This document shows, in pieces, positions 33,847 through 39,768 of a DNA stretch of 64,000 nt (the stretch's first letter is position 1; each line of letters opens with the position of its first letter). Made by a program: the position numbers and the translations under genes. Origin of the DNA: Caldilineaceae bacterium (lineage in GTDB: Bacteria > Chloroflexota > Anaerolineae > Caldilineales > Caldilineaceae); contig JAHBVG010000008.1 of the NCBI GenBank assembly GCA_019637695.1, forward strand, positions 1 through 64,000, read 5' to 3'. Below the pieces are notes generated by a model, which was not told the DNA's origin, searched no databases, and worked only from the letters and a program-made list of their open reading frames with translations.

Positions 33847-34119
33847 TCAGGTGCGATCCGTGGGGACAAAGATGCGGGCAATCGTTTCTTTGATCAGCGC
33901 CTGATAGGGCACGCCCATTTCGTTGGCCCGCTCTTTGACGGCGTCGATGACATACTCAGGGAAGCGGATGGAAACGGGCCGGGTGGTAGGCTTCAAATTG
34001 GGGAAGACTACCGGCTCGAAATCCTCGGCCTCCGCATAATCGGCCAGATCCAGGTTGGCCCAGAATTCTCGTTCTTCGTCTTCATTGGCAAATTCGGGTA
34101 ACCTAAGTTCGTTTTGCAT
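33847..34119 (-). CDS. BrnA-type antitoxin
   Basis: A 90-residue antitoxin. Start at 34119 has AAAGGAG about 10 nt upstream and overlaps the toxin gene end by 17 nt. The C-terminal RPVSIRFPEYVIDAVKERANEMGVPYQALIKETI is the ribbon-helix-helix DNA-binding domain of BrnA/CopG proteins; the N-terminal FWANLDLADYAEAEDFE is the toxin-binding part. It should form a complex with BrnT and repress the operon. Confidence 0.88.
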   Translation of the reverse strand: MQNELRLPEFANEDEEREFWANLDLADYAEAEDFEPVVFPNLKPTTRPVSIRFPEYVIDAVKERANEMGVPYQALIKETIARIFVPTDRT

Positions 34120-34408
34120 AGAGTTTGCGCTCCTTTGGCGTACAGTCCCGTGCAGAAATGACCCGCACACTGTCGCCGCGTACTGTAAAGACGATCAACA
34201 ACAAACGCGAGCGACGGGTTCTGCCGAGCAAAATATAACGGGCTTCAAAATCGGTTGTATGTAGATGGTCATGCAGTAGACGTTTGTCTCTGTCGAAAAA
34301 GCACTCTTCTGCTTCCGTTGCCGACACCCCATGCCTTACCCAGATTTTCTCTTCGTTGCCATCATCCCACTCAAAAGCAATTGGCTGCGGTATGCGTATG
34401 ATTGCCAT
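34103..34408 (-). CDS. BrnT family ribonuclease toxin
   Basis: A 101-residue BrnT toxin. The ATG at 34408 has AGGTGA 8 nt upstream; the longer frame to 34600 is not conserved in style. The core IAFEWDDGNEEKIWVRHGVSATEAEECFF, the strand RSRLLLIVFTVRGDSVRVISARD and the tail CTPKERKLYAKR are the family fold, a RelE-like ribonuclease. It is the first gene of the pair, the usual brnT-brnA order. Confidence 0.9.
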   Translation of the reverse strand: MAIIRIPQPIAFEWDDGNEEKIWVRHGVSATEAEECFFDRDKRLLHDHLHTTDFEARYILLGRTRRSRLLLIVFTVRGDSVRVISARDCTPKERKLYAKRT

Positions 34409-34465
34409 TATTGTATCACCTGGTATATACGTGTCAAGGCCAATTATTGTGATACCTAGTGTATG
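34408..34465 (-). promoter_or_regulatory. paired direct repeats upstream of brnT-type gene
   Basis: TATTGTATCACCTGGTATAT at 34408-34427 and TATTGTGATACCTAGTGTAT at 34445-34464 match at about 15 of 21 positions with 37-nt spacing. On the minus strand a TTGACA (34432-34437) lies between them. They are likely sites for autorepression by the BrnA-type antitoxin (inference). Confidence 0.45.
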
Positions 34466-34677
34466 TAAGCGGTTATTCCCTGTCAATCTATTTGTCTGAT
34501 CATCCCGGAGGATTCTTCCTTCGTAGCGCCCATGCATCCATGCTATACTATCCCCAACCGGAAGGGTACACGCGGACGCAGCGTCCGTCTGTACCTTCAT
34601 CGCCCTCCTCTTCGTCGCATTCCGGTGGCTGCGTAACGTACAATCACTGTCCCCTCATCTAACCAAGGAGTTTGGAG

Positions 34678-37600
34678 ATGAACACTCGCCTGACTGCTTT
34701 CCTTGTGGCCTGTTTGCTGATTGCGCTGTTGCCCCCCGCCGCGCTTTTTGCCGACAACCCGACGGTCCCCGTTCGCCAGGGGACGACTCCCTTTCAAGGC
34801 GAGATCGCCTATGTGCTGGACGGCGATCTCTGGCTCTACGACTTGACGGGCGCGCAAGCTCGCCAGTTGACGACAGACGGCGATACCATGGAGCCAAACT
34901 GGTCTCCTGATGGCCGCTATCTGGTCTACAGCCGCGGCGCGGATCTGGAGTCCGCCGATCTCTACCTGTTGGATGTGGAGAATGGAGGCGAAGCCGAATT
35001 GCTGATGGAGCAGGCCTGCTGCGGTGCATGGTCGCCCGACGGCGAACGCATCGCCTATGTGGACCTGAGCGGGGAGGAGCCGGCGCTGCGCAGCGTACGC
35101 CCTGACGGTTCAGGGGAGGAGACGCTGGTGGACCCGCTCACCTATGGGCGCGGCGCTTACCCGGTGGGCAAATTGGACTGGGTGAGCGATCAGTACCTGT
35201 TGGCGCCGCTCGAAATCATCGCCGAAACGAGCCTGGATATCCATCGCGATGTGATTGTGATCAATTTATGGACCGAAAGCGGCGAGGAGGCGCTGGGCGA
35301 AGAGGGCTGTAGCGCCTTGAGCGCCGACGCGGTGACGGTTCCAGAAAGTAATGGCGACGATCTGTTAGCCCTGGCCGTGGCTTTCGAGCAAACTGGCGGA
35401 TCTTGCGAAGGTATGCAGGCGGCCAAAGGCATCGACATTGATTGGTTCAACGACAACGATGGCCGTGATTTCCCCTGGCTGGCCGCGCCTAGCTTTTCGG
35501 CGGATGGCACCTTCCTGGCCGCGGAACGCTACCTGGAAAGCGACGATCCGGCTACGGCGGAGTTGTGGGGCGTGGTCGTAGTCAATACCCTCAACGGTGC
35601 CGAAGTGGCCGTGGCGGAAGGCGCATCCCAGCCGGCGTGGCGACCGGCCCCACCGCTGGATCCCTCTGCTTTGCGCTTTATGGGACCGGGTGAGCGGCTG
35701 GTTACGCTGGAGCCGCCGCTGCTCTACAACGGCAAACGCTACCGGATCTCCTATCTCACCACCGGCACGTTACAGCGCCGCGACGCAGAATTTTTCCATC
35801 TGGCCTCGCCGTCGTTCTTCGCCGATCAGGAGATCCGCGGATTGGTGGTCACCAGCGACGGCAGAGCGGTGACGGGTGACGATCTGCTGCGCCAGATTTT
35901 TCAACGCTACCACGCCGCCTACCATCTTTACGTGGAACCGCCGCCGGATCTGTTGCCCCTGCTGGGCGAAGAACTGGAGACGGTGTTGGGCAATCCGCTG
36001 CTGATGGCGATGTCGCCGGCGCGCTTCCTCACCTCGGCGCGCAACCAGAACGCCGCCGCGCTGCGCGCCATGCTCAGCGTGTGGAACGGCGAGGACGGGA
36101 CGCTGCGCATCCTGGACGACGCGCTGGCCGACGCCAATGATGCGGAAACGGCGCTGGAGGTATTGGCGGCGATCATCGAGGAGCAGTATGGGACCAACCA
36201 GGCGCTGATTGCCCTGCACGCCGATTTGAAGCTGGCCTATGAATCCAGCCAGGAGACCGTGGCGTGGGGCGGCGCCGGCCTGACGTTGTTGCGTCTGGTG
36301 GGGGAACTGCTGCTTCTCAGCCAACACCAACAAGCACGGGCGGGTTGGCTGCAAACGTACGTGGATAGCTTCCCCAGCGGCGTGGGCGGCTTGAACCGCG
36401 ACCAACTGCGGGCGACGGCGACGGTATTGGCCGAAGCCGAAGAGGAGTACCAACAGCGCCTCAATCTGGTGGTGGACTTTGCCAGGTTAGAGGGGACGAA
36501 GGCGCTTGTACAGGGTGGATCGCGCTTGACCCAGCAAGCCGCCGCCGATTTGATTGCCGGGCTTGCCGCCAAGTATGGCACATCGCTCTCCGCTCAGGCA
36601 GTCGCCAGCCTGCTCTCGGCGGTATCGGTGGGGCTGACGGTGAACAGCCTGCTCTACGGCACCGACGATCTGGTGGCGAACTTCCAACTGGCCCGACGCA
36701 GCGAAGATCTGCGCGCCACTTTCGGCGCCGCCGCTGCCGATGTACAGCGTCAGGCCAGCCAGCGCGCCGACGTCTACGACGGCGACCTGGCAGAGCGCTA
36801 CCGCATTGCCCTGTTGTTGGATGCCCTGGCCGCGGTCTCGGCCTACCATGCCTACGCCGACGGCGTCGCCGCCAGCGGGCGCATCCCCAATCTGCTCACA
36901 CTGATCAACACCCTGCGCGGGGAGGATTGGCAGGCTGCAACGGAGGGCCTGCATAGGGTGGCCGACAACGCCGAGCGCACGCTGCTGACCGATCTGGACA
37001 ACCCGGCCATGCTCGACGCCGCCGTGACCCTGGCGTTGGCGCGTACGCGCCCTCAATCTGCTACTGACGGGGACCTGCTGGTGGAGCCGACCACCGGCAT
37101 GGCGTTCGTTTTCGTTCCTGCTGGTGAGTTTGTCATGGGATCGGAGGATGGCCCGTCGGACGAACAGCCCCAACGCCTCGTCTACCTGGACGACTACTGG
37201 ATCGGGCAGACCGAGGTGACCAATGCCCAGTTTCAGTACTTTGTCGACGCCGGCGGCTATACCACAGAGCGGTACTGGAGCGATGAAGGGTGGCAGAGGC
37301 GCAGAGCGGAAGATTGGACAGGACCCCGCTGTCTGGATGATGATGATTTTAACGCCCCGGACCAGCCAGTGGTCTGTGTCAGTTGGTACGAGGCCGACGC
37401 CTATATGCGCTGGTTGAGCGAGACCACCGGCGAAAGCTACCGCCTGCCCACCGAGGCCGAATGGGAGAAGGCCGCACGCGGGACAGATGGACGTACCTTC
37501 CCCTGGGGCGATGACTTTGACGGCGCGCTGCTCAATTTCTGTGATGTGAATTGCCCACACGATTGGAAAGACAGCGATTATGACGACGGCTATGCGTACA

Positions 37601-37878
37601 CGGCGCCGGTGGGCAGCTACCCCGACGGCGCCAGCCCCTATGGGGCGTTGGACATGGCCGGCAATGTTTGGGAATGGGTCAATGACTGGTATAATAGCGA
37701 CTACTACAGCGGAGCGCCGGATGCCAACCCGCAGGGGCCGGCCACAGGCGACTACCGCGTGTTGCGGGGCGGGTCGTGGGGCTACAGCGGTAACGGCGTC
37801 CGTTCCGCCTACCGGGGCGACCTCCATCCTGACTACTGGAACGGCTACGACGGTTTTCGGTCTGTCCGCTCGCCATGA
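34678..37878 (+). CDS. secreted propeller / FGE-sulfatase domain fusion protein
   Basis: A 1066-residue predicted exported protein. AAGGAG lies 7 nt before the ATG at 34678. A signal peptide (about 1-25, LVACLLIALLPPAALFA) is followed by TolB-like propeller blades (PNWSPDGRYLVYSRG, GAWSPDGERIAYVD, about 40-320), then ~450 helical residues without recognisable family, and finally a formylglycine-generating-enzyme-like (SUMF1/FGE-sulfatase) domain at about 802-1066: FVFVPAGEFVMGSEDGPSDE, YWIGQTEVTNAQF, YRLPTEAEWEKAARG, MAGNVWEWVNDWY, RVLRGGSWG. This C-type-lectin-like fold often serves as a binding scaffold. Its last 33 codons look like a hypervariable region (see findings). Confidence 0.88.
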   Translation: MNTRLTAFLVACLLIALLPPAALFADNPTVPVRQGTTPFQGEIAYVLDGDLWLYDLTGAQARQLTTDGDTMEPNWSPDGRYLVYSRGADLESADLYLLDVENGGEAELLMEQACCGAWSPDGERIAYVDLSGEEPALRSVRPDGSGEETLVDPLTYGRGAYPVGKLDWVSDQYLLAPLEIIAETSLDIHRDVIVINLWTESGEEALGEEGCSALSADAVTVPESNGDDLLALAVAFEQTGGSCEGMQAAKGIDIDWFNDNDGRDFPWLAAPSFSADGTFLAAERYLESDDPATAELWGVVVVNTLNGAEVAVAEGASQPAWRPAPPLDPSALRFMGPGERLVTLEPPLLYNGKRYRISYLTTGTLQRRDAEFFHLASPSFFADQEIRGLVVTSDGRAVTGDDLLRQIFQRYHAAYHLYVEPPPDLLPLLGEELETVLGNPLLMAMSPARFLTSARNQNAAALRAMLSVWNGEDGTLRILDDALADANDAETALEVLAAIIEEQYGTNQALIALHADLKLAYESSQETVAWGGAGLTLLRLVGELLLLSQHQQARAGWLQTYVDSFPSGVGGLNRDQLRATATVLAEAEEEYQQRLNLVVDFARLEGTKALVQGGSRLTQQAAADLIAGLAAKYGTSLSAQAVASLLSAVSVGLTVNSLLYGTDDLVANFQLARRSEDLRATFGAAAADVQRQASQRADVYDGDLAERYRIALLLDALAAVSAYHAYADGVAASGRIPNLLTLINTLRGEDWQAATEGLHRVADNAERTLLTDLDNPAMLDAAVTLALARTRPQSATDGDLLVEPTTGMAFVFVPAGEFVMGSEDGPSDEQPQRLVYLDDYWIGQTEVTNAQFQYFVDAGGYTTERYWSDEGWQRRRAEDWTGPRCLDDDDFNAPDQPVVCVSWYEADAYMRWLSETTGESYRLPTEAEWEKAARGTDGRTFPWGDDFDGALLNFCDVNCPHDWKDSDYDDGYAYTAPVGSYPDGASPYGALDMAGNVWEWVNDWYNSDYYSGAPDANPQGPATGDYRVLRGGSWGYSGNGVRSAYRGDLHPDYWNGYDGFRSVRSP
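37777..37851 (+). other. candidate variable region (VR) of a diversity-generating retroelement target
   Basis: The 3' end of the FGE-domain gene between the fixed motifs RVLRGGSW and GFRSVRSP. At the surface-loop positions (residues 1035-1040, 1047-1050, 1052-1058), 16 of 17 codons end in C or T, the pattern left by adenine mutagenesis of AAY template codons. The intervening VRSAYR is the conserved scaffold. No reverse transcriptase or template repeat is present in the window. Confidence 0.45.
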
Positions 37879-37924
37879 TTCTGGGGTTCTGGTCTCTGGA
37901 ATTCTGGCTTTCTGAAGGTTCTGT

Positions 37925-37968
37925 GGGGGCGAAGCCCCCCTTCTGGGCCGCCGCCATAGGCGGCGGCC
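37925..37968 (+). other. two GC-rich hairpins downstream of the candidate variable region
   Basis: GGGGGC-GAA-GCCCCC at 37925-37939, then GGCCGCCGCC-ATA-GGCGGCGGCC at 37946-37968, both perfect. They begin 47 nt after the stop codon. Retroelement targets need a hairpin or cruciform just past the variable region, but these could also act as transcript-end structures; no strong U-run follows directly. Confidence 0.6.
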
Positions 37969-38226
37969 GCGCGAATTTTTTCGTATTGTGCCTACTTGCC
38001 TGCAAAAATCCGCACCTGGGGGTGCTCACTCCGCGCTTTATCTGATCCAGCAGGTCTACATGGGGGTCAAATTGGGGGCAGTAACCTGCCCTGAAAATAG
38101 AGCACGGATCAACGGAATGGACGGATTCAGAAGTTTTTTCATCCATCGTGGCGACTTCTGGGCATGGATATCTTCCTAGAAGGAAAAACATCTTCCTGGA
38201 AGGGGGGAGTATCGAACGCCCTCTGC

Positions 38227-39444: not shown

Positions 39445-39705
39445 TTACACCGTCACGGGGACTGGGTTGATGTCAATGGCGTCAATGGTAGGCAGGTCCA
39501 GGCCGTTGCGTACGCTAACCAGGATCCAGCTTTCCAGCGATTCGCGGGTATCGGCAATACAGTCCTCGCGGGTTGCGCCGATACCGATAACGCCCCGACA
39601 AGGGGGGATGGTGCCGATAAAGCGCTGATCAGGGAATTCGTCCCCGTCCTCGCTCTCTTCGATTTCGATGTAACGCAGGGCGGCTTCAATGTATTGAGTA
39701 AGCAT
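39445..39705 (-). CDS. hicB: HicB-type antitoxin
   Basis: An 86-residue HicB. The ATG at 39705 has GGAGG 6 nt upstream. The partial RNase H-like fold is shown by YIEAALRYIEIEESEDGDEF, FIGTIPPCRGVIGIGATREDC and the ADTRESLESWILVSVRNGLDLP helix. There is no separate DNA-binding domain at the C-terminus (INPVPVTV), as in short HicB forms. Neutralises the downstream HicA. Confidence 0.92.
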   Translation of the reverse strand: MLTQYIEAALRYIEIEESEDGDEFPDQRFIGTIPPCRGVIGIGATREDCIADTRESLESWILVSVRNGLDLPTIDAIDINPVPVTV

Positions 39706-39740
39706 TCTAGCCTCCGTCCACAAATTCACACTTTGGCGAC

Positions 39741-39768
39741 AGTCTACCACGTCAAGGGTGTATTGCAA
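39741..39768 (-). promoter_or_regulatory. candidate promoter of hicBA
   Basis: On the minus strand TTGCAA (39763-39768), 16-nt spacer, TAGACT (39741-39746), 36 nt before the hicB start codon. Confidence 0.4.

Follow-up and report, generated by a model that had tools for sequence, protein, structure and literature searches.

Whether a gene can be recognized as a target of a diversity-generating retroelement (DGR) from its own sequence and that of its sister copies, when a template does not lie beside it, is the question raised by the gene at positions 34678..37878 (plus strand; ATG start at 34678, in-frame TTG ahead of it at 34672, stop at 37878) of the window analysed here. The window, i.e., the whole stretch of DNA under analysis, comprises bases 1-64000 of contig C140 of its own genome, designated here G000, which is a 6.83 Mb draft of 161 contigs, 88.8% complete and with 5.3% estimated contamination. 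The original prediction was that this gene, fused at its end to an FGE domain of the C-type lectin type, may be diversified by a DGR encoded elsewhere. The domain itself was confirmed: the FGE-sulfatase region occupies 37072..37875 (plus strand) at the C-terminus of the product, and the match to PF03781 (E 4.5e-64) spans residues 811-1066, which places the presumed variable region (VR) at the 3' end of the domain. Results of our analysis indicate that the gene is likely a distant DGR target, because it combines a near-constant framework with 17 loop codons that vary in the pattern left by DGRs.

Variable region and codon statistics

The DGR-type VR (37756..37878, plus strand) consists of 40 codons plus the stop, with 23 scaffold and 17 loop positions, and its loops fit AAY template codons. 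The end of the translated frame reads RVLRGGSW-GYSGNG-VRSA-Y-R-GDLH-P-DY-W-NGYD-GFRSVRSP (stop at 37878), in which the proposed alternation of scaffold and loops is real. The excess of loop codons ending in C or T, given earlier as 16 of 17, is also real and amounts to 17 of 17 when TGG is counted as scaffold, but its weight is small when it is taken alone, since the codon use of the gene predicts 14.4 of 17 for the given residues. We therefore rejected C/T-ending codons as a stand-alone argument. The same expected value speaks for the explanation of the whole pattern as an artefact of base composition, in which C-ending codons would simply reflect a GC-rich gene with a normal FGE domain. However, the signal described below is one of copy comparison, not of composition, and has its control in the upstream codons of the very genes compared; the codon-position contrasts and the loop-residue counts refute the compositional explanation, and we find it scarcely credible.

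Comparison of sister copies

A DNA search of G000 with the last 150 bases of the gene gave 16 matches, namely the window itself, a copy on contig C151 (83% similarity), three copies on contig C141 (72-79%), and 11 short ones. In the 188 aligned codons upstream of the VR, the C151 copy differs from the window gene at 55, 55, and 89 first, second, and third codon positions, respectively, while in the 40 VR codons the corresponding numbers are 11, 9, and 0 (third-position rate, p 2.5e-10). Within the VR, 14 codons differ, each of them NNY in both copies and unchanged in its third base; upstream, the same is true of 22 of 121 differing codons (p 1e-9). A similar contrast appears across genomes, between the C141_5854 copy and a copy on contig C19 of G001, the single other genome compared from the genus: 24, 22, and 79 differences by codon position in 183 upstream codons vs. 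15, 9, and 2 in the 40 VR codons (share of third positions among the differences, p 1.1e-7), with codons of the NNY kind making up 14 of 17 in the VR vs. 13 of 102 upstream.

Not all copies behave in this way. Upstream of the VR, the three copies of C141 are at much the same distance from G001:C19, and only C141_5854 contrasts cleanly; the contrast is intermediate for C141_228 (VR 12/10/6, p 3e-4) and hardly present for C141_4656 (VR 12/9/11, p 0.05). Third-position differences to the window in the 40 VR codons number 11 in C141_4656, 13 in G001:C50, and 12 and 15 in the copies of G001:C69, and variation confined to template-adenine positions was not seen in these copies. The three copies with a VRCAYR-type scaffold have 20-22 third-position differences to the window of 37-40. 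We take copies without a clean contrast to be older, drifted, or derived from other templates. The expectation that changes should cluster at positions 1 and 2 of the loop codons holds accordingly for the window and C151 and for C141_5854 and G001:C19, though not cleanly for every copy. In three sequences of other sources that are related to the window gene, 20-21 of the 23 scaffold residues and 1-3 of the 17 loop residues are retained, with 162-192 of 225 residues of the domain upstream of the VR identical to those of the window. It is the comparison of sister genes, and not the C/T statistic, that carries the finding beyond chance. The three FGE targets of C141 (G000:C141:228-6720) lie on one strand of one contig, and the VR of one of them has drifted.

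The residues at loop positions add a second line of evidence. An AAY codon mutated at its adenines only can give 15 residues, and W, Q, K, E, and M are not among them. These five were absent from the loops of nine copies (0/153 residues; the window, C151, two of C141, G001:C19, G001:C82, and the three relatives from other sources) and account for 3 of 240 loop residues in all 14 copies of the window-type scaffold, as compared to 195 of 920 residues in the part of the domain that precedes the VR (four proteins). The set of nine leaves out P0005, which is one residue shorter, as well as C141_4656, G001:C50, and two G001:C69 copies, which are of other length or drifted. Both counts omit the VRCAYR-type copies (C35 and two on G001:C106), the copies of C159, C127, C130, and C150, and P0007 and P0008, as their scaffolds differ. 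The first loop of the VRCAYR-type copies does contain Q, K, or M. In the more distant relatives P0007 and P0008, a VR of the window-type scaffold is absent, and the tail of P0007 happens to be free of the five residues as well; among other FGE tails of G000, that of C107 contains three and that of C129 four of them.

An ordinary family of paralogues, in which diversifying selection alters the tips and gene conversion keeps the scaffold alike without any retroelement, would be consistent with the 14 dispersed FGE places of G000 and with the frequent variation of tips in binding domains. However, selection would preserve neither the third base at 14 of 14 changing codons nor the exclusion of W, Q, K, E, and M from the loops, and relatives of the host carry reverse transcriptases (RTs), a bAvd, and templates of the window scaffold type, as described below. 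We consider this explanation very improbable.

Reverse transcriptases and Avd

The search of the rest of the genome, with which a distant DGR was to be sought, succeeded in part. Neither a complete RT nor an Avd was found in G000, which is about 89% complete: the RVT_1 profile gave no match in the 161 contigs, and the bAvd profile gave two, both below the cut-off, the better of which, on contig C85, is of the four-helix IVP type as read by eye. Avd is not present in every DGR. NF033590, a guess at an RT model, is a transposase model and was dropped as irrelevant. With the RT of G001 as a query, an RT-start-like stretch was found at C35:101389-101457; the contig ends two bases further on, at 101459. 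This match is weak by itself (23 residues, 52% identity, E 0.76). The fragment reads VKTYRHLYEPITDFANLYAAFR from a GTG, has 17 of 22 residues in common with the way in which DGR-type RTs of genomes G028 and G031 begin (MKTYRHLHEQISDFANLYLAFR), and is situated behind a NACHT-bearing FGE target, the same placement as that of the RT of G001. It looks like the first 22 codons of a DGR-type RT cut by the contig end. The enzyme may serve a VR other than that of the window, since the scaffold of the adjoining target differs (VRCAYR...GFRLARTSL).

Contig C106 of G001 carries an FGE target, an RT with the motifs VGNLTSQ and YCDD, a bAvd (PF22296, 2.4e-19; PHROG 'Avd protein of DGR', 9.5e-25), and a second target. 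The (I/V/L)GxxxSQ motif is a mark of DGR RTs (PMC3521204). At the family level, 13 frames at least 49% identical to the RT of G001 over more than 300 residues are present in 8 of 46 genomes, that of G001 included; the order-level set consists of the same 46 genomes. Of 12 loci scanned, 11 gave an RT frame with the SQ motif, such frames being the only ones listed.

Templates

The absence of a template from the window, as stated in the original prediction, agrees with our scan of the window for AAC/AAT-rich stretches, which found none. A template matching the window VR was not found in G000 (about 89% complete) or in G001 either. The searches of G000 with the DNA of the VR (16 matches) and with a hypothetical AAY template (six matches) returned copies of the VR, short matches, and one template-like 5' piece. 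This piece, in G000:C152 near 8740 (minus strand), and a 22-nt template-like piece in G001:C106 at 9340-9319 (minus strand), right behind the RT and Avd genes, look broken.

AAC-rich templates are present near the RTs of genomes G023, G027, G028, G032, G034, and G035. Some of the templates in RT neighbourhoods cover the whole RVLRGGSW...GFR stretch, and those of G034, G035, and G028:C348 cover its second half only. In G001, AAC-rich templates were found on contig C16, where an RT match was not seen, and on contig C20, about 1.2 kb from an RT fragment. The target of G001:C16 (83120-85890) is a CHAT-FGE fusion whose VR is followed by a template at a distance of about 380 bases, and 14 of 29 template adenines but 1 of 64 other bases are changed between the two.

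At the class level, 29 of 396 genomes match the hypothetical template probe at E <= 1e-15, and AAC-rich templates were identified in 25 of 26 new class loci, a count that is partly circular because the probe itself is AAC-rich. The template on contig C11 of the class member G188 reads RGGSWNNNDNNVRSANRNRNAPDNINNNVGFRCARS, which is nearly the scaffold of the window with N at most loops; it lies near the contig start, and an RT was not seen within the 15 kb examined. In the 14 template/VR pairs that were of equal length and at least 85% identical at non-A bases (from 13 of 19 loci), 208 of 411 adenines differ vs. 8 of 891 other bases.

VR end and downstream hairpins

The constant 3' end of the VR (GGTTTTCGGTCTGTCCGCTCGCCATGA; 37852..37878, plus strand) is a candidate initiation-of-mutagenic-homing (IMH) segment. 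C151 and C141_4656 share it without change, whereas it differs by one base in C141_5854, G001:C19, and G001:C82, by three in C141_228, and by more in G001:C50. An exact search of IMG/VR for this end gave no match.

The two perfect hairpins claimed past the stop were found where expected, the first of them starting at the 47th base after the stop. Hairpin 1 (GGGGGC-GAA-GCCCCC; 37925..37939, plus strand) is a candidate homing hairpin. Hairpin 2 (GCCGCCGCC-ATA-GGCGGCGGC; 37947..37967, plus strand), which also flanks the VRs of C151 and G001:C19, may have a similar role, and that of a terminator is possible, as a T-run follows it. Some DGRs are known to have a homing hairpin (PMC3521204). The homology of the window, C151, and G001:C19 runs beyond the stop and across both hairpins, and a comparison of 248 loci, which were pieces rather than whole genomes, showed the 9-bp GC hairpin at these three sites and at no others. 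In hairpin 2, the three-base loop of the window is ATA, whereas C151 and G001:C19 have TAT, the inverted triplet.

Origin and present state of the VR

The footprint in the sister copies, together with the RTs, the bAvd, and the AAC-rich templates of relatives, supports the DGR-target interpretation. That the VR of the window is of DGR origin, whether the system is still active or not, we regard as highly probable. In the mechanism that we propose, a distant RT would use a template rich in adenines and make random errors wherever it copies one of them, so that the template RNA would give rise, via the RT-Avd complex, to adenine-mutagenised cDNA. This cDNA would take the place of the VR, bounded by the conserved sequences GGCGGGTCGTGG at its start and GGTTTTCGG...CCATGA at its end, and the downstream hairpins may assist in the exchange. 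The product would be an exported propeller-helical-lectin protein whose lectin tip may bind changing ligands outside the cell.

Within a DGR origin, the VR could also be a relic made by a past DGR, the matching template and/or RT of which has been lost, with the tip now fixed. The template that was not found in G000 or G001, the broken-looking template pieces of G000:C152 and G001:C106, and the existence of Treponema denticola isolates that have target genes without the core DGR (PMC4891356) would all fit such a loss. However, the third bases of the window and C151 VRs are identical, whereas 89 of 188 upstream third positions differ, so that on this third-base clock the homing is recent; moreover, the G000 assembly is about 89% complete and apparently cut inside an RT gene. 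A fixed relic appears to us unlikely, though by no means negligible, as the present state of a VR of DGR origin.

Architecture of the target protein

The N-terminus of the target protein, MNTRLTAFLVACLLIALLPPAALFA, resembles a signal peptide as judged by eye, and the protein is predicted from its sequence to be exported. Residues of about 40-360 form a TolB-like beta-propeller, according to a PD40 match and the AlphaFold model, the best solved match of which is TolB (E 1.4e-12 in the fold comparison); they are followed by a helical region (residues of about 370-790), assigned with low confidence, and by the FGE domain. The AlphaFold models are modest. For the full-length protein, the mean pLDDT is 55, although most of the stretch 40-360 is modelled with confidence; for the FGE domain, the mean is 68, with much of the C-terminal third, including the VR loops, below 50. 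We restricted their use to the fold of the propeller and the fold of the FGE domain.

Relatives of the protein with a named source include those of Caldilinea sp. (62%) and of a Caldilineaceae bacterium (59%, in a match that covers half of the queried part), so that the host is probably a Caldilinea-like member of the Chloroflexota. A scan of genome contigs with the whole protein yielded 80 loci kept of 474, which match within residues 624-1068 only. Three proteins of 1693-1694 residues (P0009-P0011) share about three quarters of the target protein at 41-42% identity, and the FGE domain is absent from their precomputed Pfam lists; it is as if the propeller-helical platform could take different heads.

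The FGE domain is the same as that of formylglycine-generating enzymes (6muj and 2q17, E 8.2e-37 by sequence). In those enzymes, a Cys pair is catalytic, which agrees with the titles of the C336S/C341S structure entries. In the alignment of the target with 6muj and 2q17, the active-site Cys pair after RGGS is absent from the target, and the Cys-bearing loop of 6muj (GGSYLCHDSYC) has a Cys-free variable loop in its place. With this loop replaced, the domain is expected to bind rather than to catalyse.

Comparison with known DGR targets

Remote DGR targets with FGE or lectin domains are already known from Treponema (PMC4891356) and cyanobacteria (PMC7517822). TvpA, a DGR variable protein of solved structure (PDB 2y3c), matches the FGE domain of the target (E 3.3e-10). 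The targets of TvpA type in Treponema denticola likewise have an FGE/C-type lectin domain with the VR, and several targets, some of them remote, occur together (PMC4891356). However, only the lectin domain is common to TvpA and the target protein in the sequences compared.

The remote variable proteins of cyanobacteria, some of which have transmembrane or signal peptide regions, are similarly dispersed, lie far from the RT, and end in a lectin fold that contains the VR, which matches a DGR template (PMC7517822). Their N-terminal domains are varied and include WD40 repeats, while the window protein has a TolB-like propeller and predicted export. They are also tied to a template in the same genome (PMC7517822), whereas a template of matching scaffold was not found in G000.

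In multicellular bacteria, DGRs diversify putative sensors of the NACHT/STAND type, with filamentous Chloroflexi among the hosts (PMC10907252). As in the present case, these sensors have VR domains of the FGE type; several DGRs occur per genome in their hosts (PMC10907252). In contrast to them, the window protein gave no NACHT match in our domain search, and its export is predicted. The target of DGR 5 of multicellular bacteria is predicted to be secreted or located on the outer surface (PMC10907252). An exported propeller-FGE target is not described in the portions of PMC7159879, PMC7517822, and PMC10907252 available to us, and it is an unusual architecture among remote DGR targets.

Fusions of NACHT and FGE with DGR-like ends are encoded in G000 as well (C159:22638-25607, C127:13537-17031, and C35:98248-101031). 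The NACHT match in C127 is barely above the cut-off. The C159 gene stops 31 bases before the contig end, and repeats at DGR loci may break assemblies.

Possible role and significance

It is possible, and we propose it tentatively, that one cell varies its recognition on both sides of the envelope by means of dispersed FGE tips fed by DGRs, with NACHT sensors inside and an exported receptor with a TolB-like propeller outside, and that the template scaffold and homing hairpins are kept across species; this would constitute an anticipatory extracellular repertoire in a filamentous Chloroflexota-type bacterium. The target would add an export-predicted propeller protein to those discussed as putative defence sensors in multicellular bacteria (PMC10907252). 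Were the DGR active, the machine would keep changing the tip of this export-predicted protein, and the 17 defined positions are open to testing for ongoing diversification.

The comparison of sister copies can reveal a probable DGR target even where a retroelement is not seen nearby, and such cases are missed by contig-based surveys. Roux et al. (2021) state that their own approach would not detect remote targets (PMC8144416).

Two minor observations concern the surroundings of the gene. A pair of a BrnT-type toxin and a CopG-type antitoxin is encoded just 5' of it (window 33850-34600, minus strand), and a small UPF0150-like protein is encoded at 39448-39768 of the window (minus strand).
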